48,333 nucleotides of DNA from a virus: positions 1-48,333 of the IMG/VR virus record IMGVR_UViG_3300009320_000027, one strand, 5' to 3'. The notes beneath the pieces are model-generated. The model saw only the letters and a list, made by a program, of their open reading frames with translations. It was not told where the DNA came from and ran no database searches. Below, piece by piece: positions 2-47,313 of the stretch. Each line of letters opens with the position of its first letter. The stretch's first letter is position 1. Made by a program: the position numbers and the translations under genes.

Positions 2-403
2 GTGTTCGCCATGACCGCTGACCCGATGGGCATCGGGGACGGTACGGTGGATGCCGGAGTCGATGACGCGCTCATCGACGAGGTGTTCGGCGTCGAGGCC
101 GCCAAGAAGTCCGAAGACGAGGGCGAGGAGAAGGGCGAGGAAGAGGAAGCCGACAAGGAAGCCGCCAAGAAGTCCGACGACGACTCCGAAGAGGAAGTGG
201 TCGAAGAGGAAATCGAGGGCGAGACGGCGGCCAAGAAGGCGGACGAGCAGAAGCCCCAGCGCCCGAAGCAGGCCGCCGGACCCAAGACCGTCGGGAACAT
301 GACCCGGACCGCCGGACAGGCGGGCGACGCCGACGAGCTGCAAAGCCTCTGGAACACCGCCCCGGACGTTTCCGAGGTCTTCGGCATCCCGAAGGGCGAG
401 TAA
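2..403 (+). CDS. Acidic low-complexity protein, C-terminal part (scaffold- or protease-like), partial
   Basis: The frame is open from the window edge, so the true start is probably outside. The visible 133 residues are dominated by Glu, Asp and Lys, with a motif of the form AAKK followed by an acidic run repeated three times. A more ordinary tail follows, ending in VSEVFGIPKGE. The gene lies just upstream of a small virion protein and the major capsid protein. That position and composition are typical of capsid scaffold or prohead-protease/scaffold genes, but no catalytic motif is visible here, so the role is inferred from context only. It could equally be another disordered internal head protein. 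A hairpin terminator follows its stop. Confidence 0.55.
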   Translation: MFAMTADPMGIGDGTVDAGVDDALIDEVFGVEAAKKSEDEGEEKGEEEEADKEAAKKSDDDSEEEVVEEEIEGETAAKKADEQKPQRPKQAAGPKTVGNMTRTAGQAGDADELQSLWNTAPDVSEVFGIPKGE

Positions 404-584: not shown

Positions 585-1280
585 ATGCCGCTGGATGGAC
601 AGGCTTCGGGTGGATGGACGGAAAGCTCGTCGGCTCTCCGATTGCTGAATGCGGGTGTCCGCAACAGCATCGGGATTCTCACCGACGACGCCTACACCCA
701 GACCAACCCGACTGCGGTGGCCACGAATGTCACGACACGGGTGGACCAGACCCTCACGGGCGTCCTCTCCGGTTCCGTGGCCTTCACCCGGCCAGACGCA
801 GGAAGCAACTTCGTGGGTGGCCCCGGCAGCAATGCCGTTCAGGTCGCCATCGCCGCAGACGTGGCTCAGGCCATCGGCTACCGCGTTCTCGGCGTCTTCA
901 TCAACAGTGCCAACGGAAACTCATACGAGAACCTGCCCGGCATCGCGTCCGGGAAGGGGCCGTACATGAGCGCCCAAGGCACCTACGGGAACGCCCTCTA
1001 CGAGACGGCCCTCATCGGGGACTCGGTGGGAGGCGACCCGGCGGCAGGCGCGGCCATCACGTACACGAACGGGCAGCGCCTCATCGCCTCGCGGAACGGC
1101 TTTTTGATGCCTCGGGACCAGCTCAACGCTGCCGGTCTGGCCATCGTCTCGTGCGATGACCAAGCCTGCGCCGCAGAGAGCTTCGTCCTCGCGGCGGACA
1201 ACAGCTCGACCATGATTGGCATCCTCAAGATGCCGCCGGACAGCGTGCAGACGGAGCTGGTCTACGACCAGCGAGTCTAA
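585..1280 (+). CDS. Small virion protein upstream of the major capsid protein (decoration-type candidate)
   Basis: A 231-residue protein with a perfect AAGGAGG site six bases before its ATG. The sequence is rich in Gly, Ala, Ser, Thr and Asn, with no membrane segment and no signal peptide, which suits a beta-rich secreted-free structural protein. Two Cys pairs appear only near the end (CDDQAC). It sits 18 bases before the major capsid protein gene, in the same transcription unit. Head decoration or stabilising proteins commonly occupy this slot, so that is the best guess. I do not recognise a named family. Confidence 0.6.
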   Translation: MPLDGQASGGWTESSSALRLLNAGVRNSIGILTDDAYTQTNPTAVATNVTTRVDQTLTGVLSGSVAFTRPDAGSNFVGGPGSNAVQVAIAADVAQAIGYRVLGVFINSANGNSYENLPGIASGKGPYMSAQGTYGNALYETALIGDSVGGDPAAGAAITYTNGQRLIASRNGFLMPRDQLNAAGLAIVSCDDQACAAESFVLAADNSSTMIGILKMPPDSVQTELVYDQRV

Positions 1281-1298: not shown

Positions 1299-2171
1299 AT
1301 GAGTGTATCGAACGCGACCAAGCAGCGCGTCATCGGTGAACTCATCAAGACCCCCCAAGGTCGGATGAGGCTCGCTGCCAGCATGACGCAACCCCTTCGC
1401 ACCCGGCGTGACTACGCCGCCGTGGGGCGCAAGACGTTCCTCGTGGAACAACTGCCGGATGGGGCATTGCCCATCTACGACAAGGACCCGGACGTGACAG
1501 CGTATGTGGTCGGAGAGGAGGGTCAGAACATCCTCGCCGTCACCAAGCCGCGCAGGGTCATCTTCCCGCTGTTCGAGATTGCCTCGAACCCCGAAATCCC
1601 GCTGACCCAAATCAAGGAACGGCGCTTCGACCTCATCGAGCGGTCGCAAGACCTCGCCCGTTCAACGATTCAGGCCGCCGAGGACGAGAGGGTGTTCGCG
1701 GTACTCGACAGCATCGCAACCGCAGGCTTCGACAGCCTGCCCGCCCAGCTCAACCCCGACATCCCCGTGGTGGCCCCGCTCTCGGGCGCGGTACTCGCGG
1801 ATGCCTTCTCGCTCATCGAACGCCACGACCTTCGGGTCGCCCGCGTCTACATGAACGCGAGGGACTACGCCGACCTGCGGAAGTTCGGGCGCGACATCCT
1901 CGACATCGAGTCGCAGGCCACCCTGCTGAAGACCGGCCTCATGGCGACCCTCTGGGGCGCACAGGTCGTGACCAGCAGGCTCGTCCCCGTGGGAACGGTC
2001 TACGTATGCTGCGAGCCGGAACACTTCGGTCGGATTCCCGTCCGTACCGAGCTGACCGTGCTGTCCGCAGACGACCCCAAGACCCGGACCATCGGCTTCT
2101 CGGTGTTCGAGAACCTCGGCCTCGGTGCCTTCAACCCCCGTGGACTCACCCGCCTGACCATCACCCGGTAA
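1299..2171 (+). CDS. Major capsid protein, probable HK97 fold
   Basis: A 290-residue protein preceded by GGGAGG. Features expected of this class of capsid protein include an N-terminal helical region (residues 1-40), a long central helix containing the run EDERVFAVLDSI, and a beta-rich C-terminal half. The C-terminal half ends with the pattern PVRTELTVLSADDP then GFSVFENLGLG. This tail pattern is what I associate with phage major capsid proteins that lack a separate delta domain. Size, position behind scaffold and decoration-type genes, and a strong terminator immediately after it fit a highly expressed capsid gene. Fold assignment is from memory of the family, not a search. Confidence 0.75.
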   Translation: MSVSNATKQRVIGELIKTPQGRMRLAASMTQPLRTRRDYAAVGRKTFLVEQLPDGALPIYDKDPDVTAYVVGEEGQNILAVTKPRRVIFPLFEIASNPEIPLTQIKERRFDLIERSQDLARSTIQAAEDERVFAVLDSIATAGFDSLPAQLNPDIPVVAPLSGAVLADAFSLIERHDLRVARVYMNARDYADLRKFGRDILDIESQATLLKTGLMATLWGAQVVTSRLVPVGTVYVCCEPEHFGRIPVRTELTVLSADDPKTRTIGFSVFENLGLGAFNPRGLTRLTITR

Positions 2172-16740: not shown

Positions 16741-17711
16741 CTTTCCAGCCTTCGGAGACGCTTGCGCGGGGCGACCTCGACATCTTTTTGACCAATGCTC
16801 AGGGAAACCCGGCTAACGCGGCAGAGATTTACTTCACCCTCTACTACGTGGACCCCGGCCCGCCCGAGACGGAAGTCCTCATCGGCCCGGCCCAACGGAC
16901 GCCGGTCAACCCGCAAGTGGGGGAGTATTACGCTTCCCTGATGGTGCCGCCCTCCGCGACGCCCGGCACGTACCGCATCAAGTGGACCTTCAAGGAGTTC
17001 CTGACCTCGCCCTACCAGCAGGTGGCGCAGGAGTTCGCTGTCGTGACCACGAGTGCTGTCATCACTCCGGGGTACAACACGGCCCAAGTGGCCATGATTC
17101 GGTCCCTTCGCATCCTGCTCCGCGACCAGAACCCGGACAAGTTCTACCATTTCCGGCCCCCGGAGCATGAAGGGGACATCGGCCAGTACAACCGCATCTT
17201 CGGGCAAATCTGGGAGGACGAGGAGCTGCTGGAATATCTCCAACGCTCCCTCGACTGGTTCAATATGTTCCCGCCGAACACGGCTCACAACATTCTGAAC
17301 CTCACCATGCTGATACAACAGCGCCCGGACTGGCGCACGGCTATCCTCTGGGGAGCCATCGTCCATGCCTGCTTCGCCCTGTCCCTGAACTGGGTTGCGG
17401 ATGAGTTCGACTACAGCATCGGCGGGGTGAGTCTCAGCATCGAGAAGTCGAGCAAGTACGAGAGCTTGAAGCAGAACGCCGAGAGTCAGTCCACGCTGGC
17501 CACCGAGGCCAAGGCCCGGACGGTCAAGTACATCCGTGGGTTGCAACAGCCACGTTACGGGCTGGGTGTTCGTAGTGCATTCGGACCCTACGTTGGCAAG
17601 GGTGTCCTCTCGCCCCGGAACTTCATAGTTTGGGCTAGTGCCTTGTTATCTGGTACAATCATGGCGGAGGTACTCTGCCATGTCAGTAATGTGTCCTCGA
17701 TGTTTGCGTGA
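16731..17711 (+). CDS. Virion protein with Ig-like N-terminal domain, C-terminus possibly altered by insertion
   Basis: A 326-residue protein starting MGVAFQPSETLARGDLDIF. Residues 1-105 form a beta-sandwich (LTNAQGNPANAAEIYFTLYY, then VNPQVGEYYASLMVPP, then TYRIKWTFKEF). A helical region follows, then KYIRGLQQPRYGLGVRSAFG and GVLSPRNF near residue 300. The last 20 or so residues (ending SNVSSMFA) overlap the start of the next homing endonuclease gene and may be a replaced tail. The upstream endonuclease ends inside its start. The gene is thus hemmed in by mobile genes on both sides. Probably a head, neck or tail component. Confidence 0.65.
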   Translation: MGVAFQPSETLARGDLDIFLTNAQGNPANAAEIYFTLYYVDPGPPETEVLIGPAQRTPVNPQVGEYYASLMVPPSATPGTYRIKWTFKEFLTSPYQQVAQEFAVVTTSAVITPGYNTAQVAMIRSLRILLRDQNPDKFYHFRPPEHEGDIGQYNRIFGQIWEDEELLEYLQRSLDWFNMFPPNTAHNILNLTMLIQQRPDWRTAILWGAIVHACFALSLNWVADEFDYSIGGVSLSIEKSSKYESLKQNAESQSTLATEAKARTVKYIRGLQQPRYGLGVRSAFGPYVGKGVLSPRNFIVWASALLSGTIMAEVLCHVSNVSSMFA

Positions 17712-18990
17712 GTTCCCCGGCTCATCTCTAAATGCCCGGCATCTCTCCAAGTGCAGTCCAGAGGCATCCCCCAAGGTGCCGCCTTGTCTGTGCGGCCACG
17801 AGTCAACGTCCCTGACTCAGATGAAACGACACAGGAGGACTTGTGCTGTTTGGCAAAACCGAGACAAGAAGGCCATCCGAGAGTCCCGTAGAAAGAAGAC
17901 AAGCCTTGAACGCTACGGGGTCGAAGATGCCAGCCAGATTCCTGAAGTACAAGCACGCCGGGCTGCTACGAACCGAGAGCGTTTCGGGGCTGACAATCCT
18001 TTTAGCAAAGAGGCTTCAACTTTCGATAAGGTGCAGGCTTCGCTGGAAGGGAAACGGATAGGTTTGAAGGGTTCAGATAATCCTTTTGCCCGACCCGAGG
18101 TGCAGAAAAAGATACGGGCCTACTGGCAACGGAATCCTCAACGAGCTTCAGAGATTCGGGAGCAGACCAAGGCCACAAATCTCGAACGCTACGGAGCGGA
18201 GGAGCCATTGTCTTTGCCCGAGGTCCGTGAACACATCAAGGATACCTGTGAGGCCCTTTACGGGGGGCCAGCGCCATCCTGTGACCCGGAGGTGATGGAG
18301 AGGGCCAGAAAGACCAACCGAGAACGCTATGGAGTGGACTGGACGTGCCAAGACCCCGACATCCGGCGGCGACAACTGGAAACCATGGAGGAAAACTGGG
18401 ATGGGCATTTTTTCGCTTCCGCTGAGGGCAAAGCGATTGTCAGGGCAGCTTTAACGGAACGGTACGGAGTGGAGTCCCCCGGAGCCATCGACGGACATTG
18501 GGAAAAAGCCGTAACGGCCTTTCAGGCCCGTTACGGTGTGGCCCACCCCCTCCAACTAAAGGTGTTTCGGGAGAAGCAAAGAGCTACCAACACCCGCAGG
18601 TACGGTTCTCCCTTTCCGGGGCTGCGGAATAGGGGGCCGAACCTACTGGAACGAAGAGTAGGCCGGATGTGTCCCAGTCTCATCTTTACCGGGGATGGGG
18701 CCTTTTGGAAATTGCTTCCGAAGCTCAACCACTACAAGAATCCTGATTTCATTGTCCCCGGTCCAGACCCGGCCAAGCCCAAGAAGGGTGTCACCAAAGT
18801 TGTGGAGGTGTTCGGAGACTTCTGGCACTCCCGAATATTCACAGGCAAGGCACCCTTTGACCATGAGCAAGAATTGATTGAGGCGTTTCGGGAGATTGGG
18901 ATTACCTGCTTGATTATCTGGGAGTCCGAGGTGAGACAGAACAGGGAGGGCGTGTCAGCAAAACTGTCCGAGTTCGCCCTAGAGAATTGA
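17680..18990 (+). CDS. Homing endonuclease with zinc-finger start, repeated ERYG modules and Vsr-like nuclease
   Basis: A 436-residue protein. The ATG at 17680 has GGCGGAGG nine bases upstream; an earlier in-frame ATG at 17638 lacks one. Residues 1-60 include Cys/His pairs (CPRCLREF, CLCGHES, HRRTC). Then come eight repeats of the form TNxERYG followed by an acidic or polar turn (residues about 75-330), likely DNA-reading modules. The C-terminus has NPDFIV near residue 354 and VVEVFGDFWHS near 377, followed by a helix and CLIIWESE, the layout of Vsr-like (EDxHD) homing nucleases. A TACAAT box at 17654-17659 may drive it. AT-rich codons mark it as mobile. Confidence 0.7.
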   Translation: MSVMCPRCLREFPGSSLNARHLSKCSPEASPKVPPCLCGHESTSLTQMKRHRRTCAVWQNRDKKAIRESRRKKTSLERYGVEDASQIPEVQARRAATNRERFGADNPFSKEASTFDKVQASLEGKRIGLKGSDNPFARPEVQKKIRAYWQRNPQRASEIREQTKATNLERYGAEEPLSLPEVREHIKDTCEALYGGPAPSCDPEVMERARKTNRERYGVDWTCQDPDIRRRQLETMEENWDGHFFASAEGKAIVRAALTERYGVESPGAIDGHWEKAVTAFQARYGVAHPLQLKVFREKQRATNTRRYGSPFPGLRNRGPNLLERRVGRMCPSLIFTGDGAFWKLLPKLNHYKNPDFIVPGPDPAKPKKGVTKVVEVFGDFWHSRIFTGKAPFDHEQELIEAFREIGITCLIIWESEVRQNREGVSAKLSEFALEN

Positions 18991-19580: not shown

Positions 19581-19616
19581 CTATACTTCCCCTTGAATGA
19601 ACGCTGAATCCCCGAG
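19581..19616 (+). promoter_or_regulatory. TATACTTCC motif before tagged-protein genes
   Basis: CTATACTTCC at 19581-19590 lies 44 bases before the start at 19626 and resembles the motif at 28880. Further down, CCCCGAGGGG overlaps the ribosome site and could fold over it. Confidence 0.3.
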
Positions 19617-19625
19617 GGGAGTTGT

Positions 19626-20492
19626 ATGTCTGCCAAAGAAGCCGCGAATGTGACTGCGTTTATCGACGCTGCATTGCACCAGCTCAACATGGCGAAGCGC
19701 CTTACGGCGGCGGGACATTCGCAAGGGTGGTCCGCGATGGCAGCCGCATTGTCTTCGCTCGGGATGGCAATGCAAAGGTCTGTGCAGCTCGGGTCGCCCA
19801 TAGACTTCAGGGACGTGAGCGGACTGGTGTTGAAGGCTGCCAAGGAAATGGAAGCCAGAATTCGGTCCAGTGACGCCTATGTGATGGCGTCCCATGAGGA
19901 GAGCAACATGAATGGACTACGTAATGCGGTCGTGAAGCTGGCCCACGAGAACCCGGAGCTGAGGGCGCATCTCGTACCCGTCCTGCGGCGCACGGCGGCT
20001 GCGAAGGAGTACCAAGTACAGGACGGCATCGGCAAGTCCAAGTACACGGTGAGCTACCACGACGGCAAAAAGACCCACAAGGACGGCAGCCCCTTCTTCG
20101 ACATCAAAATCTTCAAGAACGTGAAGGAACGCGACAAGTTCGTGAAGGAGCTGAAGGGCAAGGGCTACAAGGAGGAGCGCGGCAAGACCGCTTGCGGCTG
20201 CGGCGATGACGAGGGCCATGAACACGAGATGGTCCCCATGGCAGCCGGTGATGAAGTGGAAGCCGGACGGGAACACGGTGAGCGCGGCAAGGGTTACGGC
20301 ATGTCCGGCCCTGACGTTCGTGGCCCCGGTGCGTGGCAGCCCGAAGCTAAAGGCAAGTGCTACTACGAAACGGGCGACGAGGCGGACCGCTGCTACGTGA
20401 CCAACAAGGGCGGCCCCGGTGGCCAGAAGAAGAAAGGTCCTCCCCGCAAGCCCGGCGACTGGAAGGGCTACGAGAAGGACCGCTGGAAATAG
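19626..20492 (+). CDS. Two-part protein with internal tag module and probable second start
   Basis: A 288-residue protein with GAGGGGAG before its ATG. Residues 1-94 are a helical domain (FIDAALHQLNMAKRL, then MAAALSSLGMAMQRS). Residue 95 is a Met at 19908 preceded by GAGGAG at the right distance. From there the sequence begins NGLRNAVVKLAHENPELR and then HLVPVLRRTAAA, nearly the same as the start of the next gene. This suggests either an internal translation start or a fusion of two genes. The remainder has a compact segment (VSYHDGKKTHKDGSPFFDI, then VKERDKFVKELKGKGYKEE), one CGCG site, and a Gly/Lys-rich tail. It may be an internal head protein. Confidence 0.65.
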   Translation: MSAKEAANVTAFIDAALHQLNMAKRLTAAGHSQGWSAMAAALSSLGMAMQRSVQLGSPIDFRDVSGLVLKAAKEMEARIRSSDAYVMASHEESNMNGLRNAVVKLAHENPELRAHLVPVLRRTAAAKEYQVQDGIGKSKYTVSYHDGKKTHKDGSPFFDIKIFKNVKERDKFVKELKGKGYKEERGKTACGCGDDEGHEHEMVPMAAGDEVEAGREHGERGKGYGMSGPDVRGPGAWQPEAKGKCYYETGDEADRCYVTNKGGPGGQKKKGPPRKPGDWKGYEKDRWK

Positions 20493-20499
20493 GGCTACC

Positions 20500-21249
20500 A
20501 TGAATCTTCGACAGGGACTCGAAAAGCTGGCACACAGCCACCCCGAGCTTCGGCAGCACCTTGTCCCCATTCTCTGCCGGACGGCGGCAGCACAGAAGAA
20601 GGACGTTGAGCTGAAGCTCTACGACGGCAGCACCAAGACTGTCTCTGCGTTCGTCCTCGGCAACTGGGGTGTCTACAAGGCGTTGGCCGGGTCTGGTTGG
20701 GCCTTGACCTTCCTGCCCACCAGCCAGATGGCCCTGAAGGCCAAGACCAAGATGGAGGCACTCGGGGCGTTGGAGGCCATTTCGAGGGAACCCTCGTTGC
20801 TCAAAGCCCGGACTCACGGCGACGTGATGCGCCACGAGAAGTTGCTCAAGCAGCTCGTGGCGCAGACCAGCGGCAAGAAGCCTGTCATCGACATCGAGAA
20901 GATTCTGAGCGAAGAGGGGCTGGCCAATCAAGGCAGCCGCTACGGCAAAGCCGGGGAGTTCTGGGGCATCGCGGGGTCCAGCCGCATGATTGCGGTCGGG
21001 CGCAGGGACGTACTTCTCAACGTCTTCTTCGTCGGCATCGACAGCACGGACGCCATTCGTCGCCCGGACACCCGCTGGCTCATGAAGAACAACGTCCTGA
21101 AGACCAAGATGACCGAGGACAAGCTGCGGAAATGGGCCAAGTGGGCCAAGCAGGGCCTCTCCACCAAGAAGTTGCGTGAGGCGGCCCGAAAGCTGTTCCT
21201 GAATGAAGGGAAATACGTAGGCATCGACGGCGGGATGTACCGCCGGTAG
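20500..21249 (+). CDS. Protein with N-terminal tag shared with the upstream gene
   Basis: A 249-residue protein starting MNLRQGLEKLAHSHPELRQH, then LVPILCRTAAAQKK. About 20 of the first 30 positions match residues 95-125 of the upstream protein. The rest is alpha/beta (VELKLYDGSTKTVSAFVLG, then FLPTSQMALKAK), with basic helices near the C-terminus. It begins eight bases after the previous stop with AGGG only, so translation is probably coupled. The earlier in-frame start at 20419 would lie inside the previous gene and put 27 unrelated residues before the tag. A tag followed by RTAAA suggests targeting and cleavage, which is not proven. Confidence 0.65.
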   Translation: MNLRQGLEKLAHSHPELRQHLVPILCRTAAAQKKDVELKLYDGSTKTVSAFVLGNWGVYKALAGSGWALTFLPTSQMALKAKTKMEALGALEAISREPSLLKARTHGDVMRHEKLLKQLVAQTSGKKPVIDIEKILSEEGLANQGSRYGKAGEFWGIAGSSRMIAVGRRDVLLNVFFVGIDSTDAIRRPDTRWLMKNNVLKTKMTEDKLRKWAKWAKQGLSTKKLREAARKLFLNEGKYVGIDGGMYRR

Positions 21250-32672: not shown

Positions 32673-33283
32673 GGGAAGCCCGACTCACCTGCCGCACCCA
32701 GTCCTACCATGTGAAGGACATGCGCCTGAACATGGTCCGGGGCGAGGTTGTCTGGTGTTCGATGGAAGAGGCAGAGGCTTCGAGCGATTTGATGGTCGCT
32801 CGAAGGGCCAAGGCCATCGAGGTGGTCTTTATAGAGAGGACCCGCCAAGAACGCGAATTAGCTCCGGCTCGGCCCGCGCCCGATGTCTTGCCTAAGTCCT
32901 CGAAATCTATATGGAATCCCCCTCCCAGCCGGGGCACGGAGATGCCAACCAAAATCGACGCAGAGGACCTGCTTCGACGGCTGGGTCCGAACCTCCTGAC
33001 CCGCGAGCAGGTGGCCGAGCTGATTCAGCAGCACTTCGCGGACTTCAAGGGCGACATCGGGGCGCTCCTGCGGGAGATTCTGGCCGGGCTGACACTGCCG
33101 CAGGCGGCCCCGGTGGGTACAGTGGGGGAGAAGGTCGGCGGTGATGAGCCTATGTTCATCCCTGAACAGATAATGGGTGACGCCAAGGCCACCATCACCG
33201 TGCAGGAAGAGGAAACTTCCGGTGACGGAGTGGATGCCGCTGCGGACGCCCTGAGAAAAGCTCGGCAAGGAGACAAGACATGA
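32669..33283 (+). CDS. Phage protein of unknown function, TTG start
   Basis: A 204-residue protein starting with TTG in a TTGA overlap. The N-terminal 65 residues (LTCRTQSYHVKDMRLNMVRG, then EEAEASSDLMVARRAKA) form a small beta-plus-helix domain common to phage virion clusters. The middle is Pro-rich. A helical part contains LLRRLGPNLLTREQVAELI, and the acidic C-terminus overlaps the actin-like gene by ATGA. It may be an adaptor in the neck region. No family named. Confidence 0.55.
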   Translation: MREARLTCRTQSYHVKDMRLNMVRGEVVWCSMEEAEASSDLMVARRAKAIEVVFIERTRQERELAPARPAPDVLPKSSKSIWNPPPSRGTEMPTKIDAEDLLRRLGPNLLTREQVAELIQQHFADFKGDIGALLREILAGLTLPQAAPVGTVGEKVGGDEPMFIPEQIMGDAKATITVQEEETSGDGVDAAADALRKARQGDKT

Positions 33284-35409
33284 AGCACAGACCACCAGCA
33301 CCGGCTCCGGCAGAAGCCGCCCCAGCCCCAGCAGTGTTGCCCGGCATCGGGCTTGACATCGGAACCATGAATTTGGTGTCTGCCCGGCGCGGCCCCAAGG
33401 GCGTCGTGACCAAGCGGATGCGCGACCTGTTCATCGACCTGCCCCTGAGCGCGAGGAAGATGCTGAAGCTCTCCAAGGCCAGCAGCTACGTGGAGCGCGA
33501 GGACGATGTGGTCATCCTCGGGGACGCCGCGTTGGAGACAGCCAACGTCTTCGGGAAGGAGCCACGACGCCCTCTGAAGGCGGGCCTCATCTCACCGGAC
33601 GAGTCACAGAGCCTCGAAATCCTCGGCCTCCTCATCAAGGAGGTTCTGGGCAAGCCCGTGGTCGAGAACGAGGTCTGCTACTTCAGCGTTCCGGCGGAAC
33701 CCATCGACCAGCCCGAGAAGGACATCATCTATCATCGGGCCGTGTTCGAGCGCATCGTCAAGGAGTGTGGGTACAAAGGCACCCCCTCGAACGAGGGCAT
33801 GGGCATCATCTACTCGGAGACGGCCAAGGACCAGTTCTCGGGCATTGCCCTGAGCTTCGGGTCCGGCATGACCAACGTCGCCCTCGCCATCAACACCATC
33901 GAGGGACTCACGTTCTCGGTCGCTCGCTGCTTGGCTGAGGGTTTCCCGGTGGTAACGAGACAAGGAGTCACTCGGATAGAGGGTGTATCAGAAGGGGATG
34001 AAGTGCTTGATGCCTTCGGTAAGTTCGTTAAGGTGCGGGAAAAACTGGATAACGGACAACGCACGGAGTTGGTTGAAGTAAAGTTGGAGAACCTTCCCGC
34101 ATTTCCCCATCAAATGACTCCTGACCATCAGGTCTTCGTGAGACGGCGATTTGGATGGGTGTGGGTGAAGGCCGAGAATCTGGTCCCCGGTGATGAGGTG
34201 GGTATCCCAACTATTCAGGCAGAACGGGACAGCGGGTCATGCTACTATTTTGGACGGGAGGGCAGTGATAATATCACCGTGGCAGGGGCTAGGAATTTAG
34301 GTCGATTTTTCGGAGTTTTTTTGGGGGATGGTTCCTGCGGGGGTTCAGCAAAGGATGGCCCCCGTTATGTGCAGATTGCCTTCAATCGCCGGGACCAACA
34401 TCTTGTCGAGAAGTATGCCGAGGTCTGTAATATTTTGTTCCACCGAAAAGTCGAGGTCGTGGATGCTGTGGATGAAAACATTACTCGGCTGAAATTGCAT
34501 GTTACTCCGGTTGCACGGCATCTGCATGAGCGGTTCTATAACGGGAATTGTGAGAAGACATTTCCTCTTGAACTATCAAAGGTTTCTAACCAGACAGCAC
34601 TCGGCATCCTTGAAGGGTTGTTTGATAGTGATGGGCACGAAGAACCCAAACGACTTACGCTCACCAACACCTCGCTTTCTGTGGTGATGTTAGCCCACCA
34701 CATCTTGAATAGATTTGGGGTTGCTCACAGTATTTCGCGGCGTCCCCCACGTTTGGGGGGTGTGAACTCACGGGGGGTTCGCATTGAGGGTCGAAAGGAT
34801 GTCTATGAAGTCCGTGTCCAAGGACACATTGCTGCAACAAAACTCAAGACTTTGTTGACTGTTGAGGGTCATCAAATATTCGACAAATTTTCTGATTTTA
34901 TGGTTTATCGAGTGGTTTCTGCCGAGACAGTGAACGCTACGGTCCGGGTCTACGACCTTCGGGTGGCTTCTAATCACCATTCGTTTGCATCACCCGGCAT
35001 GGTTGTTCACAACTGCGGGGACTGGATTGACAGAGGTGCCGCTCAGTCCACCGGGACCACACAGGCTCGTGCCTGCGCCACTAAGGAGAAGGGCATCGAC
35101 CTCACCAAGCCCAACGGTCGGCTGGAAGAGGCCATCGTGTTCTACTACCGGGCGCTGGGCAACTACGTCCTCGACCAGATTGCGGACCGCTTCAAGGCCA
35201 TCGCGGACCAGTTCTCGCTCTCGAAGCCCATCCCGCTGGTGGTGTCCGGTGGCACGAGCAAGGTCGGGGGCTTCATGCCCTTCTTCACCGAGCTGTTCGA
35301 GGAGCGCCGCAAGCGGTTCCCCATCGAAATCTCGGACATCCGGCACGCGGCGCAGCCGTTGAATGCGGTCGCGCTCGGAATGCTGGTGCAGGCGACCACG
35401 GGGGACTGA
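33280..35409 (+). CDS. Actin-like ATPase (ParM/StbA-type) split by an intein
   Basis: A 709-residue precursor; after splicing about 347 residues. The host protein shows the actin-fold ATP site: phosphate-1 loop GLDIGT at residues 24-29, a second loop ALSFGSGMTNVAL before the intein, and the adenosine motif SGGTSKVGGF after it. The intein (residues 217-578) interrupts just before CGDWIDRGA. Actin-like filaments in phages and plasmids position or segregate DNA, so a filament role is plausible, but the location in a virion block is unusual. CAAGGAG precedes the ATG. Confidence 0.8.
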   Translation: MKHRPPAPAPAEAAPAPAVLPGIGLDIGTMNLVSARRGPKGVVTKRMRDLFIDLPLSARKMLKLSKASSYVEREDDVVILGDAALETANVFGKEPRRPLKAGLISPDESQSLEILGLLIKEVLGKPVVENEVCYFSVPAEPIDQPEKDIIYHRAVFERIVKECGYKGTPSNEGMGIIYSETAKDQFSGIALSFGSGMTNVALAINTIEGLTFSVARCLAEGFPVVTRQGVTRIEGVSEGDEVLDAFGKFVKVREKLDNGQRTELVEVKLENLPAFPHQMTPDHQVFVRRRFGWVWVKAENLVPGDEVGIPTIQAERDSGSCYYFGREGSDNITVAGARNLGRFFGVFLGDGSCGGSAKDGPRYVQIAFNRRDQHLVEKYAEVCNILFHRKVEVVDAVDENITRLKLHVTPVARHLHERFYNGNCEKTFPLELSKVSNQTALGILEGLFDSDGHEEPKRLTLTNTSLSVVMLAHHILNRFGVAHSISRRPPRLGGVNSRGVRIEGRKDVYEVRVQGHIAATKLKTLLTVEGHQIFDKFSDFMVYRVVSAETVNATVRVYDLRVASNHHSFASPGMVVHNCGDWIDRGAAQSTGTTQARACATKEKGIDLTKPNGRLEEAIVFYYRALGNYVLDQIADRFKAIADQFSLSKPIPLVVSGGTSKVGGFMPFFTELFEERRKRFPIEISDIRHAAQPLNAVALGMLVQATTGD
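33928..35013 (+). mobile_element. Intein with LAGLIDADG-type homing domain
   Basis: 362 residues from Cys1 (CLAEGFPVVTRQGV) to the C-terminal VVHN, with Cys as the first extein residue. Splicing blocks are visible: an N-terminal Cys, block B MTPDHQVFV with Thr and His, and the final His-Asn. Two LAGLIDADG-type motifs, FFGVFLGDGSC and LGILEGLFDSDG, keep the acidic residues expected of an active homing nuclease. The intein is clearly AT-richer than the exteins, consistent with recent arrival. Splicing and nuclease activity look intact. Confidence 0.85.
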
Positions 35410-45700: not shown

Positions 45701-46321
45701 ATGCTTGTCTACCAGTGGGGGTCGCTTGCCAAAGAGGCCCGGCGTGTGGAGGTATCCCCTGTGGATGACCTCGACCAGTACATGACGGGGCTGCTGGCGG
45801 GTTTCCTCCTCCCCTACCCGGCCATCTGGAACTCCCTCGGGGTGGAACGCAATGACGTGAGGCACTCGCTCCATGTCACGCCCCGCAAGGGCATCATTAA
45901 TTTCACGGCTCCCAAGGCGAAGGCCAAAATCAAGGTGGAGGTATCCCCGAACGGGACGCACACCGTGACCGGCACCGCCTACGGGGTCAAGCTCAACCAG
46001 CGGTTCAAGTTTCGTCCACCCATGGGCGGAGTCCATCGGGGGACGCAGGGGCAAATCAGCTCCTACATCGAAGAGGAGATTCCGTCCAAGGTCATCTACA
46101 AGGTCTACGGCCTTGGTGCGCCGCAGGAGTTCAAGACCAAGGAGGAACTCCTGCGAAAGTACAAGCAGGAGGGAATCGCAAACAGCTTCGGCCTCAAGAA
46201 GGAGCTGCGTGGCCAGCCCAGACTTGAAAACCTTGCTGGTCCCATGTGGGATGGGCGTGACAAGGACGTTGTGACCGTCCGATACGAGACGTGGGCTTTG
46301 AACGACCAGTTATCGAGGTAG
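45701..46321 (+). CDS. Phage protein of unknown function after the sheath gene
   Basis: A 206-residue protein with AGGGGAG before its ATG. A Lys-rich centre (FTAPKAKAKIKVEVSP) follows an N-terminal helical domain with YMTGLLAGFLLPYPAIWN. Then come GVKLNQRFKFRPP and a basic C-terminal part. In sheath-type phages the tube protein often follows the sheath, but this sequence does not look like one. Function unknown. It ends two bases before the next gene. Confidence 0.55.
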   Translation: MLVYQWGSLAKEARRVEVSPVDDLDQYMTGLLAGFLLPYPAIWNSLGVERNDVRHSLHVTPRKGIINFTAPKAKAKIKVEVSPNGTHTVTGTAYGVKLNQRFKFRPPMGGVHRGTQGQISSYIEEEIPSKVIYKVYGLGAPQEFKTKEELLRKYKQEGIANSFGLKKELRGQPRLENLAGPMWDGRDKDVVTVRYETWALNDQLSR

Positions 46322-46323
46322 AT

Positions 46324-47313
46324 ATGCCGACACCTCTCGAAGAAACATGGTGGCATCTCCGGCACGGTAAGCCCAAGGGCGACAAGGGTCCGACTGTAGG
46401 TTGGCCTTTCATGGGTCGGGGCCGGGAACACAAGTGGCATCTGGGCGACGCCGAGTACCGCGTCACAGTGGACCGTGACCAAGGTGGCTTCGCGGGCGGC
46501 AAGCTCTACTACTTCGCTCCGGGTGCGGGTTCCGGCAAGGAAATCGCCTCGGACGGCCAGCACGCATGGAAGCTCGTCGTGGCCGCCCTCCTTCATGCCG
46601 AGAAGCACCACAAAGACCTCGTGGAGGAGCGCAAGAAGACCGACGGGTACTTCAAGGCCCGGTTCGACCGTGAGAAGAAGACCCAGCTCAAGCCAGCGAA
46701 GATGAAGCTGGCCGAGCAGTGGGGGCCGGTCATTAAGACCGCAGGCCCTCGTGACAAGGCCCTGCCCCCGGAGCTGGCAGGCAAGAAGCCCAACGTGGAC
46801 CCCAAAGGGACTGACATGGCCATCTGGCAATGGACCGACGAGAAAGGTCGTTTCATCGCCATCGCTTATCAGGGTCGCTCAGACAAGGCCATCTGGTTCG
46901 AGGCTTTCCGGGATGAGCGCAGTCGTCAAGAACGCATCAAGAGAACCATCGGAAACCGGAAGGAGTACCTCAAGGAAAAGAAGGAAAAGGCTGAGTGGCA
47001 GCACTCCGTCAAAGCCGGGGACATCTTCGATATGTCATGGGGATACGACCAGACCAACATCGACTTCTTCCAAGTCACCGAAGTCAAGGCGAAGTTCGTT
47101 GTCATTCGGGAGCTGGACCAGAAGGTAAAACCCAAGTCTCAAGGCACCATGGACGAAGTGACGCCATTGAAAAACAAATTCGTGGGGCGTCCCATGAAAA
47201 AGAAAGTTCTGGTCAGCGGTGGAAGGCCCTACCTGAAGATGACCAGCTACGCAAACGCTTACCCATGGAACGGGCGGCCCCTGCAACAGACCAACCCCAT
47301 GTACGGTCACTAG
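46324..47313 (+). CDS. Lys-rich phage protein with WGYDQTNIDFF motif
   Basis: A 329-residue basic protein; GAGGTAG precedes the ATG. The first 190 residues are polar, with a core WHLGDAEYRVTVDRDQGGFA. The second half has DMSWGYDQTNIDFFQVTEVK, a motif I have seen in a family of phage proteins of unknown function that contain a small beta barrel. Then comes a basic stretch and an end with NAYPWNGRPLQQTNP. It may bind nucleic acid. It is not membrane-linked and has no catalytic signature. Confidence 0.6.
   Translation: MPTPLEETWWHLRHGKPKGDKGPTVGWPFMGRGREHKWHLGDAEYRVTVDRDQGGFAGGKLYYFAPGAGSGKEIASDGQHAWKLVVAALLHAEKHHKDLVEERKKTDGYFKARFDREKKTQLKPAKMKLAEQWGPVIKTAGPRDKALPPELAGKKPNVDPKGTDMAIWQWTDEKGRFIAIAYQGRSDKAIWFEAFRDERSRQERIKRTIGNRKEYLKEKKEKAEWQHSVKAGDIFDMSWGYDQTNIDFFQVTEVKAKFVVIRELDQKVKPKSQGTMDEVTPLKNKFVGRPMKKKVLVSGGRPYLKMTSYANAYPWNGRPLQQTNPMYGH

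Follow-up and report, generated by a model that had tools for sequence, protein, structure and literature searches.

Internal proteins of phage T4 reach the core of the head by means of short propeptides that are then removed; Alt is cut at both ends, and gp21 is a head gene with an internal start (PMC9026906). In the giant phage SPN3US, many head and ejection proteins carry removable N-terminal propeptides of 20 to 254 residues, which are cleaved after A-x-E by gp245 (PMC10052503). Here we compare with these systems two adjacent genes from a 48,333-nucleotide stretch of viral DNA (hereafter, the window), together with their relatives in other huge phages.

Two Unrelated Genes of the Window Share a Tag

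A first-pass annotation, made from the letters of the window, had pointed to five blocks common to the two genes (LR, KLAH, PELR, HLVP and RTAAA). All five are found in the translation from Met19908, MNGLRNAVVKLAHENPELRAHLVPVLRRTAAAKE, and in that from Met20500, MNLRQGLEKLAHSHPELRQHLVPILCRTAAAQKK. The pair conforms to the pattern LRx2-4[K/R]LAHxxPELRxHLVPxLxRTAA. The shared tag thus stands as annotated; its length, put earlier at about 30 residues, does not, the conserved core being about 26 residues followed by the RTAA junction. An alignment of the two tag regions covers 35 residues at 60% identity (E = 1.9e-8). Behind the tags, the best local match between the genes spans 15 residues (E = 2.8), and hence these parts are unrelated, as had been proposed, and homology of the whole proteins is ruled out. 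Whole-gene duplication was rejected by the same comparison. Gene 1 as a whole is laid out as tag, RTA, module A, KTA and module B (Table 1).

At the DNA level the two tags are 64% identical. Since pS (0.70) is far above pN (0.24), it is the peptide that has been conserved, and a recent duplication of the DNA does not account for the pair. The adjacency of the genes could suggest ordinary tandem duplicates, or a common N-terminus that acts as a leader for regulation or expression and has no part to play in the virion. With unrelated passengers, synonymous sites far more diverged than the peptide, and tags that in relatives also lie at C-termini and inside ORFs, we regard this as highly improbable.

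Where translation of gene 1 begins affects the place of its tag. The GAGGAG reported by the first-pass annotation ahead of the internal Met is indeed there, at a good distance from the ATG, and an internal start at 19908 is plausible. Judged from the sequence, initiation may occur at 19908 (tag N-terminal), at 19626 (tag internal) or at both. Both forms may be made, because relatives have internal tags and T4 gp21 has an internal start. A search for homologues of the 94-residue pre-tag stretch found none, and Pfam and PHROGs family searches with gene 1 gave no match. For gene 2, an IMG/VR search for close relatives with its own peptides likewise found none; single-sequence AlphaFold modeling gave a poor model, with a mean pLDDT of 39, in which the tag region alone reached 57-70, as two helices.

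Table 1. Features of the Capsid Locus and of the Tagged Gene Pair in the Window
Feature	Position	Strand	Basis
Acidic scaffold-like protein, C-terminal part; junction motifs KEAA, KQAAG, RTAG	2..403	+	
Decoration-protein-like gene (cf. phage G gp26)	585..1280	+	Position
Major capsid protein (MCP), phrog_2522; query for finding relatives	1299..2171	+	
Shine-Dalgarno-like site of the long reading of gene 1, GAGGGGAG	19614..19621	+	Sequence
Gene 1, long reading, 288 aa	19626..20492	+	ORF
Pre-tag stretch of the long reading, 94 aa, helical-looking	19626..19907	+	
GAGGAG, Shine-Dalgarno-like, well spaced ahead of internal ATG 19908	19896..19901	+	Sequence
Tag 1, MNGLRNAVVKLAHENPELRAHLVPVLRRTAAA, with junction RTA/A (predicted cut between A and A)	19908..20003	+	HMM, E = 5e-14
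Cargo module A of gene 1, KEYQVQDGIGKSKYTVSYHDGKKTHKDGSPFFDIKIFKN...	20004..20183	+	
K-T-A, second junction of gene 1, separating modules A and B	20184..20192	+	
Cargo module B of gene 1, CGCGDD...KCYYETGDEADRCYVT...	20193..20489	+	
Tag 2, MNLRQGLEKLAHSHPELRQHLVPILCRTAAA, with junction RTA/A (predicted cut between A and A)	20500..20592	+	HMM, E = 5e-13
Gene 2 cargo	20593..21249	+	

The Window Comes from a Larger Phage

The window is part of a larger phage. It shows synteny with LR745208.1, a 485-kb unannotated record from an uncultured phage, and the two MCPs are 84% identical. Members of this MCP family occur in at least 485 stretches of IMG/VR, on contigs of up to 619 kb, and Tunturiibacter phage Tunturi_5, Bacillus phage G and mycobacterial myoviruses are more distant relatives. 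The head genes of LR745208 follow the order terminase, portal, protease, scaffold-like gene, tagged gene, decoration-like gene and MCP, so that a tagged gene separates the scaffold-like gene from those of the capsid. The protease gene falls outside the window. Elsewhere in the window, a Volactin-like actin homologue (33280-35409; PF25216, E = 3e-67) is split by a LAGLIDADG intein; its counterpart in LR745208 (337414-338475) is free of the intein and aligns as two blocks flanking the intein position.

The Tag Recurs on Many ORFs of Related Huge Phages

Relatives of the tag were recovered by tblastn of INPHARED and with a degenerate DNA pattern, and were counted with a tag HMM. The first-pass annotation had called for a search for further copies; this gave none in the window itself, scanned over all 48 kb with the pattern and the HMM, and was productive in related phages. 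The HMM matched in 30 of 35 related records, with a maximum of 19 copies per record and 11 in LR745208.1. We read 159 tags on 144 distinct ORFs, 13 of which carry two or three. The tag had been taken for an N-terminus, which holds for the majority (117) and fails for those inside ORFs (23) or at C-termini (19). One ORF of 1243 residues (L148:5116-8844) has three tags and is polyprotein-like.

The consensus reads xLRxxLIRLAxENPELRxHLxPLLK, or, written otherwise, LRxxLIRLAHENPELRxHLLPLLK. Among the 11 copies of LR745208, synonymous sites are far more diverged (pS 0.62) than nonsynonymous ones (pN 0.15), showing that selection keeps the tag peptide. The HMM found no match in the distant relatives phage G and Tunturi_5, though the same protease family is present there (see below). 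In bacterial genomes there was no exact match to the tag pattern, which is a strict one.

At the position of the window pair, and with flanking genes in common, LR745208 has a tagged pair of its own (351222-352533), which differs from that of the window in cargo and has the opposite relative strand. Comparison of the two sequences makes this look like a cargo-swap site. A DUF7487-type homing endonuclease gene (17638-18990) adjoins the pair in the window, and a homologue adjoins that of LR745208.

The Tag Junction Matches a Motif of the Scaffold-like Protein and the Protease

Behind the core of N-terminal tags there follow K or R, any residue, A, and then A, G or S. RTAAA, suspected earlier to be a cut site, turns out to be one form of this predicted junction. 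A [K/R]xA lies no more than six residues from the core in 79% of 111 N-terminal tags, compared with 8.7% of control 6-mers. When the next residue (A, G, S or C) is included, the motif is found 67 times in forward and seven times in reversed orientation. A clear [K/R]xA within 10 residues is absent from 24 of 130 N-terminal and internal tags, or about a fifth. C-terminal tags have the motif just ahead of them in 41% of cases, compared with 23% by chance.

The same motif is enriched 8-fold in the scaffold-like protein and conserved in the protease. Over 80 capsid loci, 375 motifs (44.7 in shuffles, 68 reversed) lie in ORFs upstream of the MCP gene, mainly scaffold-like ones, and 51 (34.8 in shuffles) in ORFs downstream. 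In LR745208 the strongest enrichment is that of the very acidic scaffold-like protein, with seven sites compared with 0.85 expected. At scaffold-side sites Ser is favored 8-fold after the Ala. Only five of 80 MCP N-terminal arms have the motif, which may mean that the capsid protein escapes cutting, and cleavage of MCP at [K/R]xA was rejected as a general rule.

The head-maturation protease of LR745208 was assigned by PHROGs and homology (phrog_18299, E = 2e-10), and a search of 35 records, which took in phage G and Tunturi_5, found such a protease in every one. Across 29 sequences His128, Ser179 and Glu242 do not vary, and cysteines 189, 192 and 203 suggest a zinc ribbon. Every close homologue has a [K/R]xA[A/G/S] close to the N-terminus. 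Its form is WxxIR-x-A in nearly all, and the site is likely to be one of self-cleavage. The Pfam prohead protease models PF04586 and PF03420 (S77, gp21) gave no match in these genomes; PF03420 does match in T4-like contigs. In L252-L255, G027, G035 and G037, the protease ORFs are 900-1480 aa long, with homology split at several places, and these probably contain inteins or insertions.

Two other readings of the tag bear on these results. It could be a retained domain for docking or assembly in the virion, binding scaffold, portal or another head protein, with KxA sequences as flexible linkers. C-terminal and internal tags, ORFs with two or three tags, and tags that have no adjacent KxA would all fit such a domain. 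Against it stands a junction that matches both the scaffold motif and the N-terminal site of the protease and is sensitive to orientation (375 and 67 motifs, compared with 68 and seven reversed), and we consider a docking domain unlikely. Alternatively, the tag might address another site in the cell, such as a phage nucleus, a replication compartment or a membrane; by analogy, a terminal peptide common to unrelated enzymes resembles an address label. Yet chimallin (PF25677) gave no match in LR745208 and seven other records (phiKZ control, E = 0), a search that a diverged chimallin could escape; known import into the phage nucleus does not depend on terminal signals (PMC13282480); and the link to the scaffold and protease motif would be left unexplained. 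Such an address has little probability in our judgment. A nuclear import signal in particular is unlikely, with no chimallin among the eight records.

Tagged Cargo Is Diverse and Modular

Most tagged cargo has no recognized family. Matches were obtained to RNA ligase (E = 3e-27), to RelA/SpoT-like proteins (best E = 3e-5, which does not reach the Pfam cut-off), and to GNAT acetyltransferases, SAM lyase, ParB-like nuclease and DUFs. Going by these family matches, the recognized cargo would suit early delivery for host takeover or resistance to defense.

Cargo modules begin right after KxA, whether behind a tag, within other proteins or within scaffold ORFs. Module B stands directly behind the tag in L132 (RHA, then SCGCGDD) and in L133 (RHA, then SCACGDE). 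The GCEKLPEGGMRD module lies behind the tag in L138 and L156, behind an internal KTA in L135 and L155, and within the scaffold ORFs of L061, L062 and L074. Module boundaries fell near KxA 72 times compared with 43 expected, a count inflated by tag-tag alignments, and we therefore relied on individual cases. In L114, a homologue of the gene 2 cargo follows a Dps-like domain (PDB match, E = 3e-5) that ends in SRTAA and takes the place of the tag; this fusion (L114:1783-2892) is possibly a DNA-protecting protein carried in the virion. The window also has two untagged genes (45701-46321 and 46324-47313) homologous to tagged cargo of relatives, and in the second of these a KTA followed by G precedes the module shared with tagged cargo.

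Module A recurs in 12 contigs, there among several modules with ESVNE, and then A or G, between them. Among eight ESVNE contigs tested, five have a gene for a gp21-type protease (PF03420, E down to 5e-30; phrog_207); in L218 and L214 this gene lies about 3 kb or less from the polyprotein-like ESVNE ORF. T4 gp21 cleaves after (L/I)xE; hence two unrelated phage groups seem to set module A between sites of their own head proteases. The ESVNE ORFs of L212-L224, which are T4-like environmental phages, could be a parallel cargo system.

Discussion

The first-pass annotation had read the tag as a capsid-targeting signal or a propeptide. A tag family under selection, its use in many copies on unrelated cargo, a protease gene in every record searched, and a junction motif common to tag, scaffold-like protein and protease argue for that reading, and we think it probable that the tag is a capsid-targeting propeptide removed by the head-maturation protease, that is, that it serves in targeting and cleavage jointly. 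Tagged proteins would bind to the core, be cleaved at the motif, be packaged and be delivered to the host cell. The tag, a helix-Pro-helix of about 26 residues on otherwise unrelated proteins, would bring them to the scaffold, or to the core, of the head as it assembles, acting from the N-terminus, from the C-terminus or from inside an ORF. The maturation protease would then cut after [K/R]-x-A where the next residue is A, G or S. This would release the cargo within the capsid, and DNA and cargo would presumably be delivered together. Cleavage at [K/R]xA before A, G or S is predicted to be a new protease specificity. Since the separators between modules are the same predicted cut sites, one ORF could carry several cargo modules.

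A broader reading is that tag and separator make up a modular code of address plus cut site, in which a reusable tag and a new separator allow host-takeover or protective proteins to be strung together and swapped as head-packaged polyproteins, with modules exchanged with T4-like phages that use VNE followed by A or G as separator. We lean slightly toward this view.

If these predictions are correct, the tag would list, from sequence alone, the head-packaged and probably delivered proteins among hundreds of unknown huge-phage genes, and the delivered set would include anti-restriction and RNA-repair enzymes. It would also provide a second capsid-loading label, unrelated in sequence to the T4 CTS and usable at either terminus, for placing foreign proteins in phage heads. 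The predicted cut site of the protease is specific and testable in vitro, and the shared modules would suggest that cargo proteins built of modules and separators arose in, or are shared across, distant phage groups. The literature searched gave no description of the tag and no paper naming LR745208.

Like the T4 CTS of IPI, IPII, IPIII and Alt, which gp21 cuts off, the tag is a short peptide common to otherwise unrelated proteins (PMC9026906), and the function predicted here, targeting to the prohead core followed by removal by the maturation protease, is also alike. It differs in its sequence, which looks unrelated, in length (about 26 residues, compared with 10-19 in T4), in number (up to 19 per record, compared with a handful), in C-terminal or internal placement, and in the predicted cut, which is at [K/R]xA before A, G or S and not after Glu and would be made by a protease unmatched by the S77 model. 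The [K/R]xA junction and the lack of a PF03420 match set the tag apart from the T4 IP/Alt CTS family, to which it does not appear to be homologous.

With SPN3US the phages studied here share giant size, a prohead protease and, at the cut predicted here, a preference for a small residue next (Ser in SPN3US) (PMC10052503). They differ from SPN3US in putting a single short tag, homologous from copy to copy, on cargo proteins that are unrelated, and in a cut predicted to follow [K/R]-x-A; the junctions, with Ala at P1 and Lys or Arg at P3, depart from the A-x-E / S-x-E cleavage of the phiKZ/SPN3US type. The ESVNE ORFs have cargo module A in common with gene 1 and differ in using VNE followed by A or G and another protease family; no LR..HLLPLL tag was seen in those ESVNE ORFs of L212-L224 that were read. 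As far as the literature searched shows, the system described here would thus be of a known kind, that of the T4 CTS and giant-phage propeptides, and new in the sequence and copy number of its tag, in its use at both ends and inside ORFs, in its polyprotein layout and in its predicted cut site.
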